10,613 nucleotides of DNA, taken from assembly GCA_011390235.1 (NCBI GenBank), contig JAABSS010000439.1:1-10613 (forward strand). The letters run 5' to 3'. The stretch comes from Desulfotignum sp. GTDB lineage: Bacteria > Desulfobacterota > Desulfobacteria > Desulfobacterales > Desulfobacteraceae. This document shows positions 1,168-9,905 of this stretch, in pieces. The position numbers and the translations under genes are program-made. Numbering within the stretch: position 1 is the first letter of the stretch; every line of letters begins with the position of its first letter. The notes beneath the pieces are model-generated. The model saw only the letters and a program-made list of their open reading frames with translations, was not told the DNA's origin and made no database searches.

Positions 1168-1569
1168 ATGGATAAAACTCTTTTAAAACTCAAGGCCCTG
1201 GCCGATCGAAACCGGCTCAGGGTTTTCGGGGCACTGACGCAGTATGAAGAACTGTGTGCCTGCCAGATCACGGAACTGTTACAGGTTTCTGGAGCCACGG
1301 TCTCACGGCACCTGGGCATTCTGGTCACGGCCGGGCTGGTAAAGAGCCGGAAAGAATCCCGGTGGGTCTATTTTGCCCTGGATGAGGGCTGTGACGAAAT
1401 GGACAACATCCTGGACTGGCTGCTGCCCCGGCTGCGCCTGTCGGATCAGATACAGGCGGATCTTGAGATGCTTGATGGGATCATGGCGGTGTCAAAGGAA
1501 GACCTTTGCCGGCAACAGCGTGGAGAGGCCTGCTGCCCGGCGCAAAAAAAGGAGAAAGCACATGGGTGA
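1168..1569 (+). CDS. arsR: ArsR-family arsenite-responsive repressor
   Basis: A 133-residue winged-helix repressor, expected to bind the palindrome upstream and to dissociate when As(III) binds. The helix-turn-helix spans roughly residues 25-58, with the recognition helix around SGATVSRHLGIL. The metal site is of the ArsR type: ELCAC places C30 and C32 at the start of the DNA-binding helix, as in ELCVC of the E. coli protein. The wing follows (KSRKESRWVYFAL). An extra C-terminal stretch carries C114 and an adjacent pair C122-C123, which might add a third thiolate ligand; that is inference. The start is supported by AGAGGT at 1159-1164. The stop overlaps the arsC start by eight bases, so the two are probably translationally coupled and the operon is self-regulated. 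Confidence 0.92.
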   Translation: MDKTLLKLKALADRNRLRVFGALTQYEELCACQITELLQVSGATVSRHLGILVTAGLVKSRKESRWVYFALDEGCDEMDNILDWLLPRLRLSDQIQADLEMLDGIMAVSKEDLCRQQRGEACCPAQKKEKAHG

Positions 1570-2011
1570 TCAGAAATTGAAGATATTGTTTCTGTGCACG
1601 GGAAATGCGTGCAGAAGCCAGATGGCCGAAGGATGGACCCGGCATCTCAAGAATGATGTGATCGATGTGTTTTCCGCCGGAGTGGAAACCCACGGCGTGG
1701 ACCCTAAGGCTGTGGCGGTTATGAAGGAGGCGGGGGTGGATATTTCCCATCACCGGTCCAAACATGTCAAAGAATTTCAGGACAAACAAATGGATGTGGT
1801 GATTACGGTGTGTGACCAGGCAAAAGAATCCTGCCCCTTTTTTCCCCTTGCCGGTAAAAAGGTCCACCAGGGATTTGCAGATCCCCCGGCCCTGGCAAAG
1901 GATTTGGCACAAAAAGGCGGTGATGAAAACGCCCAGCTGGACTGCTACCGGAAAGTCAGAGATGAAATCCGGGCGTTTGTGGAAAAATTGCCGGACAATG
2001 TGTTGTCATAA
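1562..2011 (+). CDS. arsC: Arsenate reductase, thioredoxin-coupled low-molecular-weight phosphatase type
   Basis: Reduces As(V) to As(III) in the cytoplasm, which is then exported by the next gene product. The 149-residue protein has the phosphatase-like P-loop CTGNACR near the N-terminus (C12-x5-R18). The resolving pair C84 and C91 (CDQAKESC) has the same six-residue spacing as the Bacillus subtilis/Staphylococcus thioredoxin-dependent enzyme, and a GFADPPA segment carries the catalytic-acid aspartate. The ATG at 1562 is chosen because it has AGGAG seven to eleven bases upstream and gives the family's normal N-terminus (KILFLCTGN). Longer frames to the left only read arsR out of frame. It overlaps the arsR stop; acr3 follows after 44 bases. 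Confidence 0.93.
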   Translation: MGDQKLKILFLCTGNACRSQMAEGWTRHLKNDVIDVFSAGVETHGVDPKAVAVMKEAGVDISHHRSKHVKEFQDKQMDVVITVCDQAKESCPFFPLAGKKVHQGFADPPALAKDLAQKGGDENAQLDCYRKVRDEIRAFVEKLPDNVLS

Positions 2012-2055
2012 ATCTAAAAAAATAGAACAATCCTGAAAAAGGAGAAAAATCAACC

Positions 2056-3246
2056 ATGAGTTCCCCTGTTGATAATGATCGGAAAATGACCAGTATGTTT
2101 GAGCGGTACCTGACCGTCTGGGTCGGGCTGTGCATCATCGGCGGCATCCTTCTGGGAAAGATCGCCCCCGGGCTGGCAGGAGCCCTGGACGGCGTGGCCA
2201 TCACCGTAAATGGTGCTCCCGTGGTGTCCATCCCCATTGCTGTCTGCCTGTTTTTCATGATGTACCCCATCATGGTGAAAATCGATTTCGCCTCGGTGAT
2301 CCGGGCGGGAAAGAGCGGCAAACCCGTGTTCTGGACCCTGTTCATCAACTGGTGTATCAAGCCCTTTACCATGTATGCCATCTCTGTATTTTTTCTGGGG
2401 ATTGTATTCAAAGGGTTTATCGGCGCTGAAGCCATGGATCTGGTGAAAATCCCCTTCGGCCTGGACCTGGCCGTGGGGGCTACCCACGGAGACGGGGTGG
2501 TGGTGCTTCACGAGGGGGTGAAGATGCTGCAGATCCCGCTGTGGCGAAGCTATCTGGCCGGGTGCATCCTTTTGGGCATCGCGCCGTGTACGGCCATGGT
2601 CCTGGTGTGGGGATATCTGTCCAGGGGCAATGATGGGTTGACCCTGGTGATGGTGGCCGTAAATTCCCTGACCATGCTGGTGCTGTACGGGGTTCTGGGC
2701 GGATTTTTGCTGGGCGTGGGCAAGCTGCCCATTCCCTGGCAGGCCCTGTTGCTGTCTGTAGGGATCTATGTGGCACTGCCCCTGGTGGCCGGCTATTTTT
2801 CCCGGATATGGATTATCAAGGCCAAAGGAGAAGAATGGTTCCAGGAAAAATTTTTAGGAGTCCTGACCCCGGTCACCATCAGTGCCCTGTTGGTGACCCT
2901 GGTATTGCTGTTCAGCTTCAAGGGGGATGTCATCACCTCCAATCCCTTGACCATTCTGTGGATCGCTGTTCCGCTGTTCATCCAGACTATCCTGATCTTT
3001 GCCATCGGTTATGCCGGGGCCGTGTTCATGCAATTCAACTATGCAGATGCAGCCCCGGCAGCCATGATCGGGGCCTCCAACCATTTTGAGGTGGCCATTG
3101 CCACATCTGTCATGCTTTTCGGGCTGTCATCGGGTGCGGCACTGGCAACCGTGGTGGGGGTGTTGATAGAGGTTCCGGTGATGCTGATGCTGGTGGGGTT
3201 CTGTAAACGGACCCAGCACTGGTTCAGTAAAGGGGAGGCAACATGA
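2056..3246 (+). CDS. acr3: Arsenite efflux permease, Acr3 family
   Basis: A 396-residue integral inner-membrane carrier expected to export arsenite, with about ten hydrophobic segments. It carries the family's signature parts: [14 protein letters not shown] with the conserved cysteine C178 in the fourth segment, and [11 protein letters not shown] with E345, which correspond to residues known to be needed for transport in Acr3 proteins. Between the third and fourth segments (about residues 118-160) there is a hydrophilic stretch with [16 protein letters not shown] that is longer than I remember for typical Acr3. The start has AAGGAG 11 bases upstream and follows the arsC stop by 44 bases. The stop overlaps the ATG of the AOR gene (ATGA), indicating coupled translation. 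Confidence 0.93.
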
Positions 3247-5132
3247 CAGGCAAACAATTTTTTTTAAAAGTGCTGATGCTTGATGCAGCCAGCGGATTTT
3301 ACCGTCTCAAACGGTATCCGGTGGGGGATTTTTTCGGGCCGGTGGACTTGGGCATTCACATGAGTTTTAAGCACAACAGCCTGACCATCGGCGGCGGCCT
3401 TCTGGCCGGTTCCATTTTCCCGGGATCGAACCGGATGATCTTCTGCGGCAAATCTCCCTGCTGGCATGGGTTCTATGTGTCATCCATGGGCGGGGCCGCC
3501 CTGGTGTTCGACAACCTGGGGATCAATCAGCTGGTGATCCTAGGCAAGGCCGACAAGCCGTCCCTTCTGTATCTCAACCGGAATCACGGAGAGGAGATCG
3601 ACGTGGAACTGGTGCCGGTATCACCCGGCAAGATCTGGGAAAAGGGACGGGGCGGGGTCTATGGAGTGATGGAGGAGACCATGACACGGTTTTCCGGCCG
3701 GTATGAAACCGATCCCAGGGTATTGGCAACAGGGCCGGCCTCCCGGTACACCGATTTCGGGGCCATCGCCTCGGCCCCGGTCCGCAAGAAAAAGCTGACC
3801 CCGGTGGATACCTGGGCCGGCAGGGGCGGTTTCGGTTCGAAGCTTTTCCAGGAGCACGGCATTGTCGGGATCATCTACGGCGGCACCTATGTGGATGAGG
3901 ATTTTCGTGAACGCAAGGTGGCGGATCAATGGTTTGCGGACAAATACAACCAGCGCATGGCAGCCAAGGATATCGAGGCCACCACCAAATACCGGTATGA
4001 TCCCGCTGTTAAAACCGGCGGCACCTTCGGGGTAAACTATGCCGCCATGTCCGGCAATATCCTGGCGTTCAACTACCGGACCCTTTACTGGGGTGAACGC
4101 CAGCGAAAAGACCTGCATCAGCGGTTCATTCTCGACCATTACCTGAAACAGTTCAATGAGGAGACGATCCAGAAAAAACAGCAGAAAACCTGTGGCGAAC
4201 CCTGTGCCGCCGTGTGCAAGAAAATGAACGGGTCCTTTAAGAAAGACTATGAACCCTACCAGGCCATGGGGCCGTTGTGCGGCATCTTTGATCAGCGCGC
4301 CGCAGAAAAGCTTGCCGGCCATGCGGATACATTGGGGTTTGACGGCATCGGTGCGGGCGGGGTCCTGGCCTGGCTCATGGACTGCCTGGATGAGAAATTG
4401 CTGGATCCTGACCACATCGGTGTGGCCATGAAACCGAAATGGAATTTTCAGGACTTTGATGTGGTTGAAGATTCCCTGCACAATGCGGAACTCGGAAAGC
4501 TTTTGCTGGATGAAATGGTCCGGCCGGAGGGGAAGATTCCCCTGGGAAAGGGGGCCAGAAAACTGGCCCGGGGCCTGGCCAGGGAAAAAGGCAAACCCGT
4601 CATGGACCGCTTTGTTCATAATGCATTTGCCCGCCAGGGCTGGATGGTTCCCAACCAGTACTGGACCCCGGGGGTTCTGGCTCCCATGCCCATCATGGGC
4701 AAATACTATATGCACTATGGCAGAAATTTCATGGCTCCTAAAGCTTTGGGCAAAGAAAATGCGCATCGCATGCTTCAGGAACTGATGCTGGACAACCTCG
4801 GAATGTGCCGGTTTCACCGGGCCTGGGCCGAAGATCTGATGCCCGACATCATTGAAAAAATCTACGGATTGAAAGACCGGTTTCTTACGTCCATACGCCT
4901 GACCGCCGGCCGCATCACCAGCCGGAATGCCTCGGTGTTCTGGGAATCGGAACGTAATATCGACATGGTTCACACCTTCTTGAAAAACAAAAAAGCGGTG
5001 GACCAGATACAGGATCCGGACCTGGACCACTGGCTGGACCTGTTTAACAAAGACAAACACCAGGCTGCGTTTGAGTTCTGGTACGAGATGCACAAAGGGA
5101 CCCATGAAACCCTCCGGGACTTTCCGGTCTAA
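3243..5132 (+). CDS. Aldehyde:ferredoxin oxidoreductase-family (tungsten/molybdenum pterin) protein in the ars operon
   Basis: A 629-residue protein of the AOR family, oxygen-sensitive enzymes with a bis-pyranopterin tungsten (or molybdenum) site and one [4Fe-4S] cluster that oxidise aldehydes to acids and reduce ferredoxin. The N-terminal domain (to about residue 215) contains the [11 protein letters not shown] and [18 protein letters not shown] stretches that wrap the cofactor. The cluster ligands are probably C317, C321 and C325 (CGEPCAAVC) with C522 (NLGMCRFHR). Spacing is CX3CX3C, whereas I remember CX2CX3C for the Pyrococcus enzyme. There is no signal peptide, so it is cytoplasmic. The start has GGGGAGG at 3232-3238 and overlaps the acr3 stop, tying it to arsenic resistance. 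Its substrate cannot be told from sequence; a role in arsenic metabolism is inference from context. Confidence 0.88.
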
Positions 5133-5562: not shown

Positions 5563-6465
5563 ATGGACCTTAATTTATTTTCTTTGCGGGTTTTTTTGAA
5601 AGTCGCCGACTGCAAAAGTTTTACAGGGGCTGCTGAAGCTTTATTCCTTTCACAACCCGCTGTCAGCCTTCAAATCCAAAAGATTGAGCAGCTGTTCCAA
5701 ACACCGCTTTTTATCCGAAATTCATCCGGTTCCATCCGGTTGACAGCCGCTGGAGAAACGCTTCAAAAGCTTGCCAAAAAATTTGTTACACTTCAGCAGG
5801 AAACACTGAACGAAATGTGGATACACAGCCCTTCTCTGCAACGCAAACTGAAAATTGGCGCCTGTTGTATAGGGGGTGAACATCTCATGCCTGTCGGATT
5901 GGCGGCTTTCCAGGAATCCCACCCTGACACATCCGTATCGCTGTCGGTTACCAAATGCGAACAAATATTCAGCGGCTTGCTGTCCGGCGATTTTGATATC
6001 GGCGTCACAGGCCTGGCACCTAAAAACAGATCCTTACATAAAATAAAACTGTTTGATGCACCACTGGTGATATTTCAAGCCGGCGCAATAAAACCTGTAT
6101 CCGAAAAAACAACAAATCTGAAGCGGTTGCTAAAGGCCCGGTTGATTTTACGCGAAAAAGATTCCGGCTGCCGGGTTGCATTTGAAAATTTTTTGGTCAA
6201 AAACAGAATTCACCTGCAGGAATTTTCTATGATCAGTGAATCCGACAGCAATGAAGCCATCAAAAATCTGGTGAAAAAAGGCTACGGTATTTCAATCCTG
6301 CCGGAATTTATGCTCCAAAAAGAAATTGATGACGGGATTTTTTCGGAAATCCGGTTGCAGGAAGGACGACCGAAAATGACCTTTTATGTTTCATACCGCA
6401 ATCAGAACAATCCATCAGAGATTACCCAAGAGTTGATCACCACCTTTATGAAATCTCTTCCCTGA
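5563..6465 (+). CDS. LysR-type transcriptional regulator
   Basis: A 300-residue LysR-family regulator. The N-terminal winged helix-turn-helix covers about residues 1-62 (FLKVADCKSFTGAAEALFLS, QPAVSLQIQKIE, LFIRNSSGSIRLTAAGE). A linker helix follows, then a periplasmic-binding-protein-like effector domain from about residue 93 (KLKIGACCIGGEHLMP) to the end. The effector cannot be named; the general layout recalls the CysL/CbbR-like branch. The ATG at 5563 has only a weak GAGG upstream, but the N-terminus (MDLNLFSLRVFLKVA) is the family's normal one. The selenoprotein cytochrome gene begins 154 bases downstream on the same strand. Regulation of that gene is plausible but unproven, since these regulators more often face a divergent target. 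Base composition is more AT-rich than the ars genes. Confidence 0.9.
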   Translation: MDLNLFSLRVFLKVADCKSFTGAAEALFLSQPAVSLQIQKIEQLFQTPLFIRNSSGSIRLTAAGETLQKLAKKFVTLQQETLNEMWIHSPSLQRKLKIGACCIGGEHLMPVGLAAFQESHPDTSVSLSVTKCEQIFSGLLSGDFDIGVTGLAPKNRSLHKIKLFDAPLVIFQAGAIKPVSEKTTNLKRLLKARLILREKDSGCRVAFENFLVKNRIHLQEFSMISESDSNEAIKNLVKKGYGISILPEFMLQKEIDDGIFSEIRLQEGRPKMTFYVSYRNQNNPSEITQELITTFMKSLP

Positions 6466-6558: not shown

Positions 6559-6619
6559 GATGATCAATGTCTGAATTTTATCCAAGGCCTTAACGAATCC
6601 ATTAGAAACAGGAGGCATT

Positions 6620-7492
6620 ATGGGAAAGATCACATCCAGAAAGGGAATTTTCAAAGAAAAATCGGCCCAGGGGGGACAGCACAAAGCAGGTGAAGTAACC
6701 CGGAGAAATTTTTTGCGCGGGGCCGGCATTTCGGTGGCTGGTTTGGCTGTAATGGGAACGACAGGCCTGGTGTTGAAAAAAAAGGCCATTGCCACCACTC
6801 AGGCCGCCCCCGGAGCCTTGCCTTATGAAAAGCTGGATCCTGAAAAGGCCATGAAAATGGCCTATGAGGGCTATTCCAAGGGAGGCTGAGGTATTGGCAC
6901 AGCCGAAGGTCTTTTCGGCTATATGGCAGAAGCGGTCGGTTCTCCATACAATGTTATTCCTCCAGCCATGTTTATCGGTTTCAGCGGCGGCATCCAGCAC
7001 TGGGGGACTATTTGCGGAGCTCTGGTAGCCCCTGTCGCCCTGATCAGCAGTGTTGTTGCGGACAAGAAAATCAGAGGTCAGATGCTCGACGAGTTAATGG
7101 CCTGGTACATCCATCACCCCTTTCCCGAGTATCAGCCCCATGGTTTGAACCTGCACAAGGTTGCAGTCGGTTCCACCCTGTGCCATATCTCCGTGAGCAA
7201 GTGGATCAATTCAGCCGATCCCCCGGTTACAGCCAAATCCAAGGAAAAAAAGGCCAGGTGCGCGGGGGTTTCCGGCGATACAGCAAGAAAAGCTGTAGAA
7301 ATATTGAATGCCTGGGCAGATACTGGCACGTTCACCGCTGTGCACAAACCTCATCCCAGTGTGGAAAACTGCATGGGATGTCACAAAGACTGTGAGGCGC
7401 CGTTCACCCAGGGCAAGGAAAACTGCCTGAGCTGTCATGGATCATCGCTGATCGACATTGAAAAATGTAAAACACACTCAGATTGCATCTGA
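6620..7492 (+). CDS. Tat-exported split-Soret-type dihaem cytochrome c, selenocysteine-containing
   Basis: I read this as one 290-residue protein with selenocysteine at residue 90, encoded by the in-frame TGA at 6887-6889. The start has AGGAGG at 6610-6615. A twin-arginine signal (TRRNFLRGAG, R28-R29, then a hydrophobic stretch to about residue 52) directs it to the periplasm. The sequence around the TGA (AYEGYSKGG-U-GIGTAEGL) aligns with the AY-G-YKGGCMYGAAEGL region of Desulfovibrio split-Soret cytochrome c as I recall it, so selenocysteine replaces a conserved cysteine. Later landmarks are WGTICGAL (C132), LCH (C188), RCAG-SGDTA (C214), and two c-type haem sites CMGCH (251-255) and CLSCH (269-273). 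Split-Soret proteins are dimers with two haems per monomer; a periplasmic redox role is expected, but the substrate is unknown. Confidence 0.88.
6887..6920 (+). promoter_or_regulatory. Bacterial SECIS element (UGA plus downstream hairpin)
   Basis: After the TGA (6887-6889), AGCCGAA (6901-6907) pairs perfectly with TTCGGCT (6914-6920) around the hexaloop GGTCTT (6908-6913). The E. coli fdhF element recognised by SelB also presents GGUCU in its apical loop. There the loop starts 18 bases after the UGA, the same distance as here. The bulged U in the fdhF upper stem is absent. Confidence 0.85.
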
Positions 7493-7502
7493 GTCTTGGG
7501 CC

Positions 7503-7877
7503 TCACCGGGCGATGGAGTCAATGACCGCATTGTGAAAAGAAAGTATTCCGGGTTCGGCCGCCGGGATTTTTTCCTGGATGGCCATCTCCCGAAGCCGGT
7601 CCATGGCCGCGGCCACATCCTCCCCGTTGGGGCATTCCATGGCACAGGTGTTGCATCCCACGCACAGCCAGATGGTGGAACAGGACAACGCTTTTTCCTT
7701 GAACCCGAACTGGATCAACCGGATGATCGCATTGGGTAAATAATCCATGTCTTCGCTGAACGGGCATCCCCTGCTGCAGGTCAGGTAGTGCCAGGGCCGG
7801 ATCAGATGGGAATGTCTCAGGTTTTCCACTTGGTCGATAAATTTCAGGGCGGAATGGTCCAGTTCAATGGGCTGTAT
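7503..7877 (-). pseudogene. HdrC-like [4Fe-4S] ferredoxin subunit, probably degraded
   Basis: The frame resembles the N-terminal part of heterodisulfide reductase subunit C-like proteins: CSRGCPFSEDMDYLPNAIIR, LIQFGFKEKAL, then WLCVGCNTCAMECPNGEDV and MDRLREMA. The second cluster motif CX2CX2CX3CP is complete. In the first, only the last two cysteines remain (CSRGC): the two expected before them read P and Y in PWHYLTC. The good ribosome site AGGAG (7884-7888) is followed after six bases by ATA (7877-7875) instead of ATG. The only GTG in frame, at 7829, has no such site and would remove conserved N-terminal residues. The protein stops at DSIAR, where relatives continue for some 60 residues. 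Three defects together suggest decay, although the frame itself is open. It converges on the selenoprotein gene, ten bases between stops. Confidence 0.6.
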
Positions 7878-8055: not shown

Positions 8056-9441
8056 CTATGTCTTTGATCCGCTTGTACTCAGCAGTTCAAGTGGATGAAA
8101 CACCTGCTGGGAAAACACCTGCTGCAGCTGCATGCGGCAGGAAAGGCAGTCGGTGACAAGGGTCCGGCCGGATGCGGCCGTCAGCCGTTTAAACAGGGGA
8201 CCGCCTATGGCAAGGGAATGCTTATGAAACCCGGTTTTAAATCCCAGGTGCCCCCCCATGCCGCAACAGTGCATCTCTCCGCCCACCGGGATGATGTCTG
8301 CGCCGGGCAGGGACTGGATCAGCTCCACATAGGGATGGCCGATGTTTTGTTCCCGCTGGTGGCAGGGAGCAAAATAGGCCAGGGCCCGGTCCGGGGCCTT
8401 CAGGGAGATGGAAAGCGGCCCGGCTTTGTGCCGGGCCAGCAGGTATTCTCCCAGATCCTGGACGTTCATGGACAGATCGATGCGCTGCAGGGGGTCGATG
8501 CCGGAAAAATATCCGTTATCTTTTAAAAAGGTTTTGTATATGCCCATGGGCACAAAGGTGAATTTTTCATTTCCGGATCCCACCGGCACTTGCATCCGGT
8601 TGCCCCCGGCATCGGCCCGCTGTTGAAACGCGTCTGAATAATATGCGGTTTCTTTCAGCAGTTTTTTGAAAAAATACCCGCAGGTGGGACATGAGCAGAC
8701 AATGGCGTATCCCTCCTGAATACAGGCACCAAGGGTTTCCATGTTGGCCTGTATCCTTTTTTCAGCCGTTTTCTGGGTTCCCTCCATGATCAGCGGCATG
8801 CTGCAGCAGTCCTGGGAAGGAACAAATACCTGGACCCCGTTTTGTTCCAGCAGGCCTACAGCTGCTTTGGCCACATCGGGAAACAGGTAACCTGCACTGC
8901 ACCCGGCAAAATAGGCAACCCTTGGAGCGTCCTTTTCCGCGTGTTTCACCGGTGCGCTTAACCCCCTTTTTCTGGCCCAGGCAAAAAAGTGTTTTTTCGG
9001 AAACACGGGCAAAGACCTTTGAGGATGGATATCCAGGGCTTTTTTTGCTAGTGCCGAGACAGGGTTCAGCCGGTTCATAGGATTGATCACAGCGGAAAAT
9101 CCCGCTCCCCACTGGCCGGCCTGCCGGGCATCCGATAAAAGCCTTGCGGACAGCGGCGGTTTTTTCTCTTCGGCTCTGGCAGCCTTGGCTTTTAAAACCA
9201 GCATCCGGATATCCTGGCACGGGCACAGCCCGCACAGGGTGCACAGGTCCACCAGGGATGCCATGGTCTTTTCATCCGGGGGCGTGCCGGTTTCTTCTGC
9301 CAGGTCGTGGAGGCGGTACATTTCAGGAAAAAACAGGCAGTCCTCTTCCATGTGTTCCCGGCACACCTCGCATCCGGACCGGCCGGCGCACTTTTTAAAG
9401 ATTTTCAGAACCAGGGAGGTGAAATCGCTTGCCATTTCCAT
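8056..9441 (-). CDS. GlpC/HdrD-like iron-sulfur protein with two CCG domains
   Basis: A 461-residue cytoplasmic-type iron-sulfur protein related to GlpC, HdrD and lactate-utilisation Fe-S subunits, which pass electrons between quinones, disulfides or flavoproteins. The N-terminal ferredoxin part has two cysteine groups, C18/C24/C27/C35 and C67/C70/C73/C75 (CTLCGLCPC). Their arrangement differs from the usual pair of CX2CX2CX3CP motifs. Two CCG (cysteine-rich) domains follow: C181...C212-C213 with C251 and C254, and C360...C392-C393-G with C432 and C435. These motifs can hold a non-cubane cluster in HdrB/HdrD. The ATG at 9441 overlaps the TGA of the upstream rhodanese gene (TGATG), indicating translational coupling; GGGGCGG lies just upstream. 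No membrane subunit is adjacent, apart from the MauE-like protein two genes upstream. Confidence 0.85.
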   Translation of the reverse strand: MEMASDFTSLVLKIFKKCAGRSGCEVCREHMEEDCLFFPEMYRLHDLAEETGTPPDEKTMASLVDLCTLCGLCPCQDIRMLVLKAKAARAEEKKPPLSARLLSDARQAGQWGAGFSAVINPMNRLNPVSALAKKALDIHPQRSLPVFPKKHFFAWARKRGLSAPVKHAEKDAPRVAYFAGCSAGYLFPDVAKAAVGLLEQNGVQVFVPSQDCCSMPLIMEGTQKTAEKRIQANMETLGACIQEGYAIVCSCPTCGYFFKKLLKETAYYSDAFQQRADAGGNRMQVPVGSGNEKFTFVPMGIYKTFLKDNGYFSGIDPLQRIDLSMNVQDLGEYLLARHKAGPLSISLKAPDRALAYFAPCHQREQNIGHPYVELIQSLPGADIIPVGGEMHCCGMGGHLGFKTGFHKHSLAIGGPLFKRLTAASGRTLVTDCLSCRMQLQQVFSQQVFHPLELLSTSGSKT

Positions 9442-9905
9442 CAACCGCCCCTGTTTTCCTCAAGGATTTCCATGACATTTCTGGCGCTGTCTCCCCGCAG
9501 AAACTCCGCAAGACCCAGAAGGCCGTCCACCAGGTATTTGGCATTGTACCCTTTGGTTCTCAGATATGCCATGGCCAGAATGGCCCGGTCTTTGTGGGGG
9601 CAGGCGGTCACGATGGTTTTGTCTTTGTCTATCTCGTCCAGGCGGGATGGTAGTTCGTTGAGCGGGATATGGCTGCCGAATCCCATCCGCCAGGCAGCAC
9701 TTTCTTCTTTGAACCGGATATCGACCAGCTGGATAAGCCCCTGTTCCAGACCGCTGACCAGAGATTCGCTGTTGATCTTCATCTCTTTGCGGACCTTGTA
9801 GTCGAACCCGGAAATATAGGTTTCCATAGACAATTCTGCGGCATGGACTGCAAAAGGGATGACCATCATCAGGATGGCGGCAATCGTAATGATCCGTTTT
9901 TTCAT
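9441..9905 (-). CDS. Exported single-domain rhodanese-like sulfurtransferase
   Basis: A 154-residue protein with a Sec-type signal peptide (MKKRIITIAAILMMVIPFAV, cleavage expected near HAA-E at residues 21-24), so probably periplasmic. The rhodanese domain begins with LVSGLEQGLIQLVDIR, has the HIPLNELPSRL segment and an active-site loop ACPHKDRA with catalytic C102 and R107. It ends with GYNAKYLVDGLLGLAEF, the usual 'hyperconserved glycine' region. The catalytic cysteine is present, so persulfide transfer is possible; the physiological sulfur donor is unknown. AAGGA lies nine bases before the ATG. The gene follows the MauE-like gene by 30 bases and overlaps the CCG-protein start, so all four minus-strand genes probably form one operon. 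Confidence 0.88.
   Translation of the reverse strand: MKKRIITIAAILMMVIPFAVHAAELSMETYISGFDYKVRKEMKINSESLVSGLEQGLIQLVDIRFKEESAAWRMGFGSHIPLNELPSRLDEIDKDKTIVTACPHKDRAILAMAYLRTKGYNAKYLVDGLLGLAEFLRGDSARNVMEILEENRGG

Follow-up and report, generated by a model that had tools for sequence, protein, structure and literature searches.

A predicted selenocysteine-containing split-Soret-type cytochrome c encoded in Desulfotignum sp. DNA

The locus and its neighbourhood

The window (the whole 10,613-nt stretch of Desulfotignum sp. contig JAABSS010000439.1 that was analysed) carried the following features.

1168..3246, + strand: ArsR-family regulator, ArsC-like protein (below its model cut-off) and ACR3 arsenite transporter
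5563..6465, + strand: LysR-family regulator, context gene; four other genomes have a homolog (41-44%) no more than about 5 kb from the UGA gene
6610..6615, + strand: AGGAGG ribosome-binding site, 4 nt 5' of the ATG, read from the sequence
6620..7492, + strand: gene for the predicted selenocysteine (Sec)-containing split-Soret-type cytochrome c, 290 residues via one UGA, stop codon TGA at 7490-7492
6701..6706, + strand: twin arginines (residues 28-29) of a Tat signal, assigned by motif; Pfam TAT below cut-off
6887..6889, + strand: UGA codon for predicted selenocysteine 90, aligned in homologs with the first conserved Cys of the C_GCAxxG_C_C pattern
6901..6920, + strand: SECIS-like hairpin with an 8-bp stem; its GUCU loop (6909-6912) lies 22 nt past the U of UGA
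7013..7015, + strand: Cys132, second conserved Cys (GTICGAL), invariant in the 16-row and 56-row alignments
7181..7183, + strand: Cys188, third conserved Cys (LCHISV), invariant in both alignments
7259..7261, + strand: Cys214, fourth conserved Cys (RCAGV), invariant in both alignments
7370..7384, + strand: first CXXCH haem motif, residues 251-255, by sequence and alignment
7424..7438, + strand: second CXXCH haem motif, residues 269-273, by sequence and alignment
7503..7829, - strand: HdrC/QmoC-like dicluster ferredoxin, context gene, below equivalog cut-offs
8056..9444, - strand: CCG-domain (HdrB/GlpC-like) protein, context gene; a 40% homolog lies beside the UGA gene in genome G129

The first-pass annotation, made from the letters of this DNA, had placed one frame with a single TGA at 6887-6889 across 6620-7492 and had predicted that a gene caller would split it into fragments of 89 and 189 residues. 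The coordinates were borne out, and ORF calling with table 11 returned exactly these two pieces (6620-6889 and 6923-7492). No clear ribosome-binding site was seen in the sequence at the usual spacing before the internal ATG at 6923. The signal sequence of the read-through product was TRRNFLRGAG; the proposed Tat signal stood as far as its RR motif and fell short on the Pfam TAT model (16.8, cut-off 22.7). The two CXXCH haem motifs that had been noted after the UGA were present in the frame. With C placed at the UGA, the product scored 45.3 bits on PF09719 (C_GCAxxG_C_C; gathering cut-off 27). Rfam searches at gathering scores gave no match anywhere in the window.

From base 7126 onward the window was 99.9% identical over 3,488 nt to contig L002 of a Desulfotignum sp. 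MAG (G002), which starts downstream of the UGA site. Four of the 86 family genomes searched had any match, and the close match was confined to G002. The nearest gene covering the site was found in a Desulfonatronum sp. MAG (L001, 75% identical), where two tandem copies (L001:7464-9694) both carry the site TGA and the same hairpin. Because the closest site-covering gene lies in Desulfonatronum, the window gene may have arrived by horizontal transfer.

LysR homologs (41-44%) were neighbours of the UGA gene in G121, G122 and G124; in G129 one lay about 5 kb off, on the contig that carries the 5' end of the UGA gene. The window LysR protein scored 199.6 bits on the 'selenium metabolism-associated LysR' model, under the cut-off of 250. 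In the window, G124 and G129 the UGA gene had ArsR and ACR3 homologs nearby; BLAST at 1e-8 found none in the remaining loci scanned. Neighbours scanned in the other Sec groups (defined below) were variable. The LysR, CCG-domain and arsenic neighbours are treated as leads with no functions assigned, and an arsenic linkage as the function of the UGA cytochrome likewise as a lead.

Several other genes were recorded near the UGA genes. An aldehyde ferredoxin oxidoreductase-type protein (AFOR_N, AFOR_C) is encoded at 3243-5132 of the window, between the arsenic genes and the LysR gene. In G124, the mercury methylation corrinoid protein HgcA (L055:2074-3090; 412 bits, cut-off 275) is encoded within a few kilobases of arsenic genes and the UGA cytochrome. 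The L002 contig, reaching past the end of the window, holds MauE-like, rhodanese, Fe-S (PF04060) and weakly DsbD-like genes (L002:2811-4795), two of which give weak matches to the model for selenoprotein TsoB, far under its cut-off. In G728, a molybdopterin oxidoreductase with an Fe4S4 domain and an in-frame UGA of its own is encoded directly downstream of the UGA gene (L094:7806-11021); by motif we take it to resemble formate dehydrogenase.

Recurrence and exchange of the UGA codon

Three overlapping genome sets were searched for relatives, with matches in 122 of 348, 24 of 389 and 55 of 395 genomes. TGA aligned with residue 90 of the window protein was found in 20 genes, the window gene included, from 19 genomes (G002 counted as that of the window); the 19 others were 28-75% identical to the window protein. 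Their occurrence at one shared codon is more than chance. Among 44 distinct non-UGA loci, the codon was TGC or TGT in 43, and the remaining one (L012) has Ala in the alignment, close to a Cys. Identical gene copies were removed before this tally, and 20 against 44 is no frequency, as the locus set was enriched for TGA by selection and some matches had no locus.

Seventeen of the 20 UGA genes were read whole, each carrying an RR signal and both CXXCH motifs; three were cut or frameshifted. L086 is cut at a contig end, and a frame change disrupts L085 (G647), the second part of which matches in a different frame. L029 (G129) ends at a contig edge; a second G129 contig shares 121 nt with it, contains the signal and likewise has TGA at the site. 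An extra residue in L027 moved the TGA one residue later in the raw alignment; the GG-U-G motif is identical. One UGA gene sits on a 1.1 Mb contig, and G884 had a single UGA member plus three other matches that contain no stop.

Other candidates flagged for TGA were set aside. In G293, G295 and G296 the TGA lay outside the site, where the aligned residue is Cys, and in L087 it lay at query residue 12, with Cys at the site. L089-L091 (G1023, G1005, G968), also TGA-flagged, were absent among stop-bearing tblastn matches at 1e-4. Viral contigs gave 26 pattern matches, none a relative of the cytochrome, and plasmids searched for relatives gave zero matches.

The UGA was said to fall at a conserved cysteine, and it aligned with the Cys of GCG in the solved structure 1h21 and with the Cys of relatives. 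Of the 226 database relatives listed (106 from one search and the best 120 of 484 from another), 198 extend over the site, with Cys in 197 and Gly in one; together with the 43 of 44 distinct non-UGA loci, these answer the proposed check for Cys in relatives. The description of the site as KGGC held for the Cys; the KGG context is the local version, and the letters around the Cys vary in relatives. The 28 other listed proteins start 2-27 residues past the Sec site, as expected where genes are cut at the UGA, and at least one of them (P0009) is the downstream fragment of a UGA gene in L001. Members of the Sec-containing cytochrome group thus stand in databases as fragments. The letter U occurred in none of the fetched database protein sequences, a result to be read with the possibility that the database converts U.

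A tree of 87 rows was built by a quick method and has some long branches; 18 Sec and 57 Cys rows were scored and 12 truncated rows were left uncounted. Rows shorter than 180 aa (L085 and L086 among them) and L012 were omitted. The most parsimonious history required five Sec/Cys state changes, three of them forced by starred branches, and in 500 shuffles of the labels the count never fell as low as five. The 18 placed UGA genes formed four Sec groups among Cys homologs: that of the window; L082/L083/L084; L068/L069/L070/L074/L088; and L060/L065/L081. Nested in the Sec group of the window is a Cys protein, P0004, which is 61% identical to the window protein.

The hairpin after the UGA and the selenium machinery

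The window hairpin after the UGA reads AGCCGAAG-GUCU-UUUCGGCU, and we take its loop to resemble that of the E. coli fdhF SECIS. Nineteen UGA genes (L086 was too short and was dropped) were compared with 44 non-UGA homologs, duplicates removed, for a hairpin whose first two loop positions include G, with an energy of -7 kcal/mol or better and a loop of up to 11 nt. Such a hairpin was present in 18 of 19 UGA genes, with loop starts 20-26 nt after the UGA, versus 4 of 44 non-UGA homologs, with loop starts scattered at 14-34 nt. When the loop was limited to 8 nt, the counts were 17/19 and 3/44. Three results were counted against the Sec reading: the exception, L088, has a weaker hairpin (-3.7); the hairpin of L082 requires a 10-nt loop; and the hairpin ranked in the best tenth of its own gene in only 13/19 UGA genes (versus 4/44 non-UGA; 11-nt setting). 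At the 8-nt setting, 15 UGA genes and 5 non-UGA homologs reached that rank.

Stems differ in sequence between Sec groups, and the stem register shifts between groups. Within the group of the window, synonymous identity was scored in seven genes: 112 of 129 same-residue codon pairs were identical over codons 95-101, against 1164 of 2346 over codons 70-89 and 102-286. Seven-codon segments starting at 94 and 95 ranked first and second of 203. These frozen synonymous sites point to a hairpin region under RNA-level and not solely protein-level selection.

Presence of selA, selB, selC and selD in the same genome had been proposed as a check, and near-identical G002 contained all four components: SelB (343 bits, cut-off 242), SelA, SelD with a UGA of its own, and tRNA-Sec with anticodon TCA. 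Across the UGA genomes, SelA passed its curated cut-off in 18 of 19 (6/6 and 12/13). SelB passed in 6/6 tested, the G121 match spanning the first 358 positions only; SelD was present in 6/6 tested, each with an in-frame TGA; and tRNA-Sec with the TCA anticodon was found in 2/2 tested, both confirmed by ARAGORN. No SelA match was obtained in G136, although a UGA gene with a good hairpin (L060) lies there; this was counted against the Sec reading, and may be due to incomplete assembly or to misbinning of the contig.

In 14 control genomes, cut-offs were passed by SelA in one, SelB in two, SelD in two and the tRNA-Sec model in five. SelB also passed in 6/6 genomes tried where solely non-UGA members were found. 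Neither SelB nor tRNA-Sec therefore discriminates alone, and the tRNA-Sec model, passing 5/14 controls, is the weakest marker of the four. The Sec machinery is needed, yet does not separate the UGA from the non-UGA sets.

Fold, known relatives and the role of residue 90

The sole PDB sequence relative at E <= 0.001 was 1h21 (E 2.1e-35), titled as the split-Soret cytochrome c of Desulfovibrio desulfuricans, 'A novel iron centre'. An AlphaFold2 model was built from a 56-row alignment (a single-sequence run with pLDDT 40 was set aside); mean pLDDT was 80.3, with block means >90 over residues 71-240. The model matched 1h21_A with E 6.4e-15, rmsd 2.0 Å, TM 0.81 on the target and 37% identity. In its secondary structure, helices begin at or shortly after Sec90, Cys132 and Cys188, and Cys214 is placed within a helix. 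All four Cys columns and both CXXCH motifs were invariant in 16 rows chosen by the author; in the 56-row alignment, fragments included, C132, C188 and C214 were invariant and CXXCH letters were conserved at 90% or more. The NF047622 equivalog model gave 174.5 bits against a cut-off of 400, and the protein is therefore named 'split-Soret-type' and not as the equivalog.

Split-Soret cytochromes c are dimers with stacked bis-His haems, a split Soret band and a non-haem iron centre. The window protein has the fold, the other conserved Cys and the two CXXCH motifs in common with them (1h21; NF047622) and differs in its predicted Sec, where they have the first Cys. The C-GCAxxG-C-C protein of TIGR01909 (120 positions) has the same Cys pattern by name; the window protein scored 17.7 bits on that model (cut-off 47.4) and, unlike it, has a Tat signal and a dihaem C-terminal part. 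The caution in the first-pass annotation that Sec variants exist in the wider C_GCAxxG_C_C family is in print: published tables list C-GCAxxG-C-C selenoproteins (entries MGD8741185.1 and WP_012158890.1; PMC9312934, PMC13188914). Forms 1 and 2 of these have PF09719 and selenocysteine in common with the window protein, and their table rows, on which this comparison is based, name no haem domain and give the Sec motif as '-' (PMC9312934, PMC13188914). CXXCH or c-type cytochromes listed with Sec comprise ExtKL, the GSU2204 family and a tetrathionate-reductase-family octahaem protein (PMC13188914), and a Geobacter cytochrome candidate with an in-frame TGA was noted in 2007 (PMC1914089). Like the window protein, these combine CXXCH or c-type haem with Sec or an in-frame TGA; by their listing, ExtKL, GSU2204 and the octahaem protein are set apart as other families (NF040886, NF041027, TIGR04315).

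The terms 'GCAxxG' and 'selenoprotein' occur together in reviews. A literature search joining 'split-soret' with 'selenocysteine', with most subscription papers outside its reach, found no paper. What is new here is Sec together with the split-Soret dihaem fold; Sec in C-GCAxxG-C-C proteins and in multihaem cytochromes has already been published, and the combination may already be implicit in published forms 1 and 2.

Comparative evidence supports the coding frame, the exchange of Cys and Sec, the hairpin, the presence of Sec machinery and the fold, and 6620-7492 very probably encodes one whole exported haem selenoprotein of the split-Soret-type kind. The UGA at codon 90 would be decoded as selenocysteine by SelB and tRNA-Sec, aided by the adjacent 3' hairpin, and the product would be a 290-residue Tat-exported split-Soret-type dihaem cytochrome c. 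Sec90, Cys132, Cys188 and Cys214 would bind the non-haem (Fe-S type) iron centre of the family, and electrons would pass between this centre and the two haems in the periplasm.

On balance, going by the title of 1h21 and the abstract of Abreu 2003, we lean towards Sec90 being a ligand of the iron centre. That study reportedly proposed that cysteines of the split-Soret cytochrome bind an Fe-S type centre. None of the aligned loci showed TGA at any of the three remaining Cys. As Sec was found at the first of the four Cys only, and in several separate groups, this position is probably the reactive ligand, accessible to a partner or a small substrate. The fuller reading, in which Sec is a natural ligand of an Fe-S type centre beside two c-type haems and is repeatedly swapped with Cys at one ligand, is held tentatively, at slightly under an even chance. 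According to the review PMC13188914, direct contacts of Sec with ligands have yet to be confirmed outside a few well-characterised selenoproteins.

Alternatively, Sec90 could be a selenoenzyme-type redox residue, cycling via a selenenylsulfide or selenenic acid with a conserved Cys or attacking a metalloid or sulfur substrate, and binding no iron centre in vivo. Such a role would fit the restriction of Sec to the first Cys, which is unexpected for a purely structural ligand, as well as the arsenic or rhodanese genes near the UGA gene in several genomes of the group of the window. It is nevertheless the less likely account, as the solved relative is titled 'A novel iron centre', the four Cys are conserved together and the neighbours vary in other Sec groups.

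That the UGA is a real stop, leaving a pseudogene or an 89-aa exported peptide and a separate downstream protein, accords with the fragments from mechanical ORF calling and with database entries that begin past the site. This is very improbable given the same codon in 20 genes, the frame and haem motifs kept in the 17 whole ones, the frozen hairpin, the lack of a clear Shine-Dalgarno sequence at the internal ATG and the presence of Sec machinery. A one-base sequencing or assembly error, which had been raised as a check, has a negligible chance even though the window is the sole sequence of this site from the strain among those examined (L002 begins past it), since the same codon is TGA in the 19 other genes from 18 other genomes, one of them on the 1.1 Mb contig, and two overlapping G129 contigs both read TGA.

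With residue 90 read as Sec, an exported dihaem cytochrome joins the predicted selenoproteins, and the structure of a Cys-containing relative has been solved. Swaps of Sec and Cys inside one family, as between the window protein and P0004 at 61% identity, allow a clean test of selenium at the iron centre. If the ligand reading is true, the family would include an exported Fe-S(Se)/haem protein whose iron site is selenium-tuned or open to substrate.
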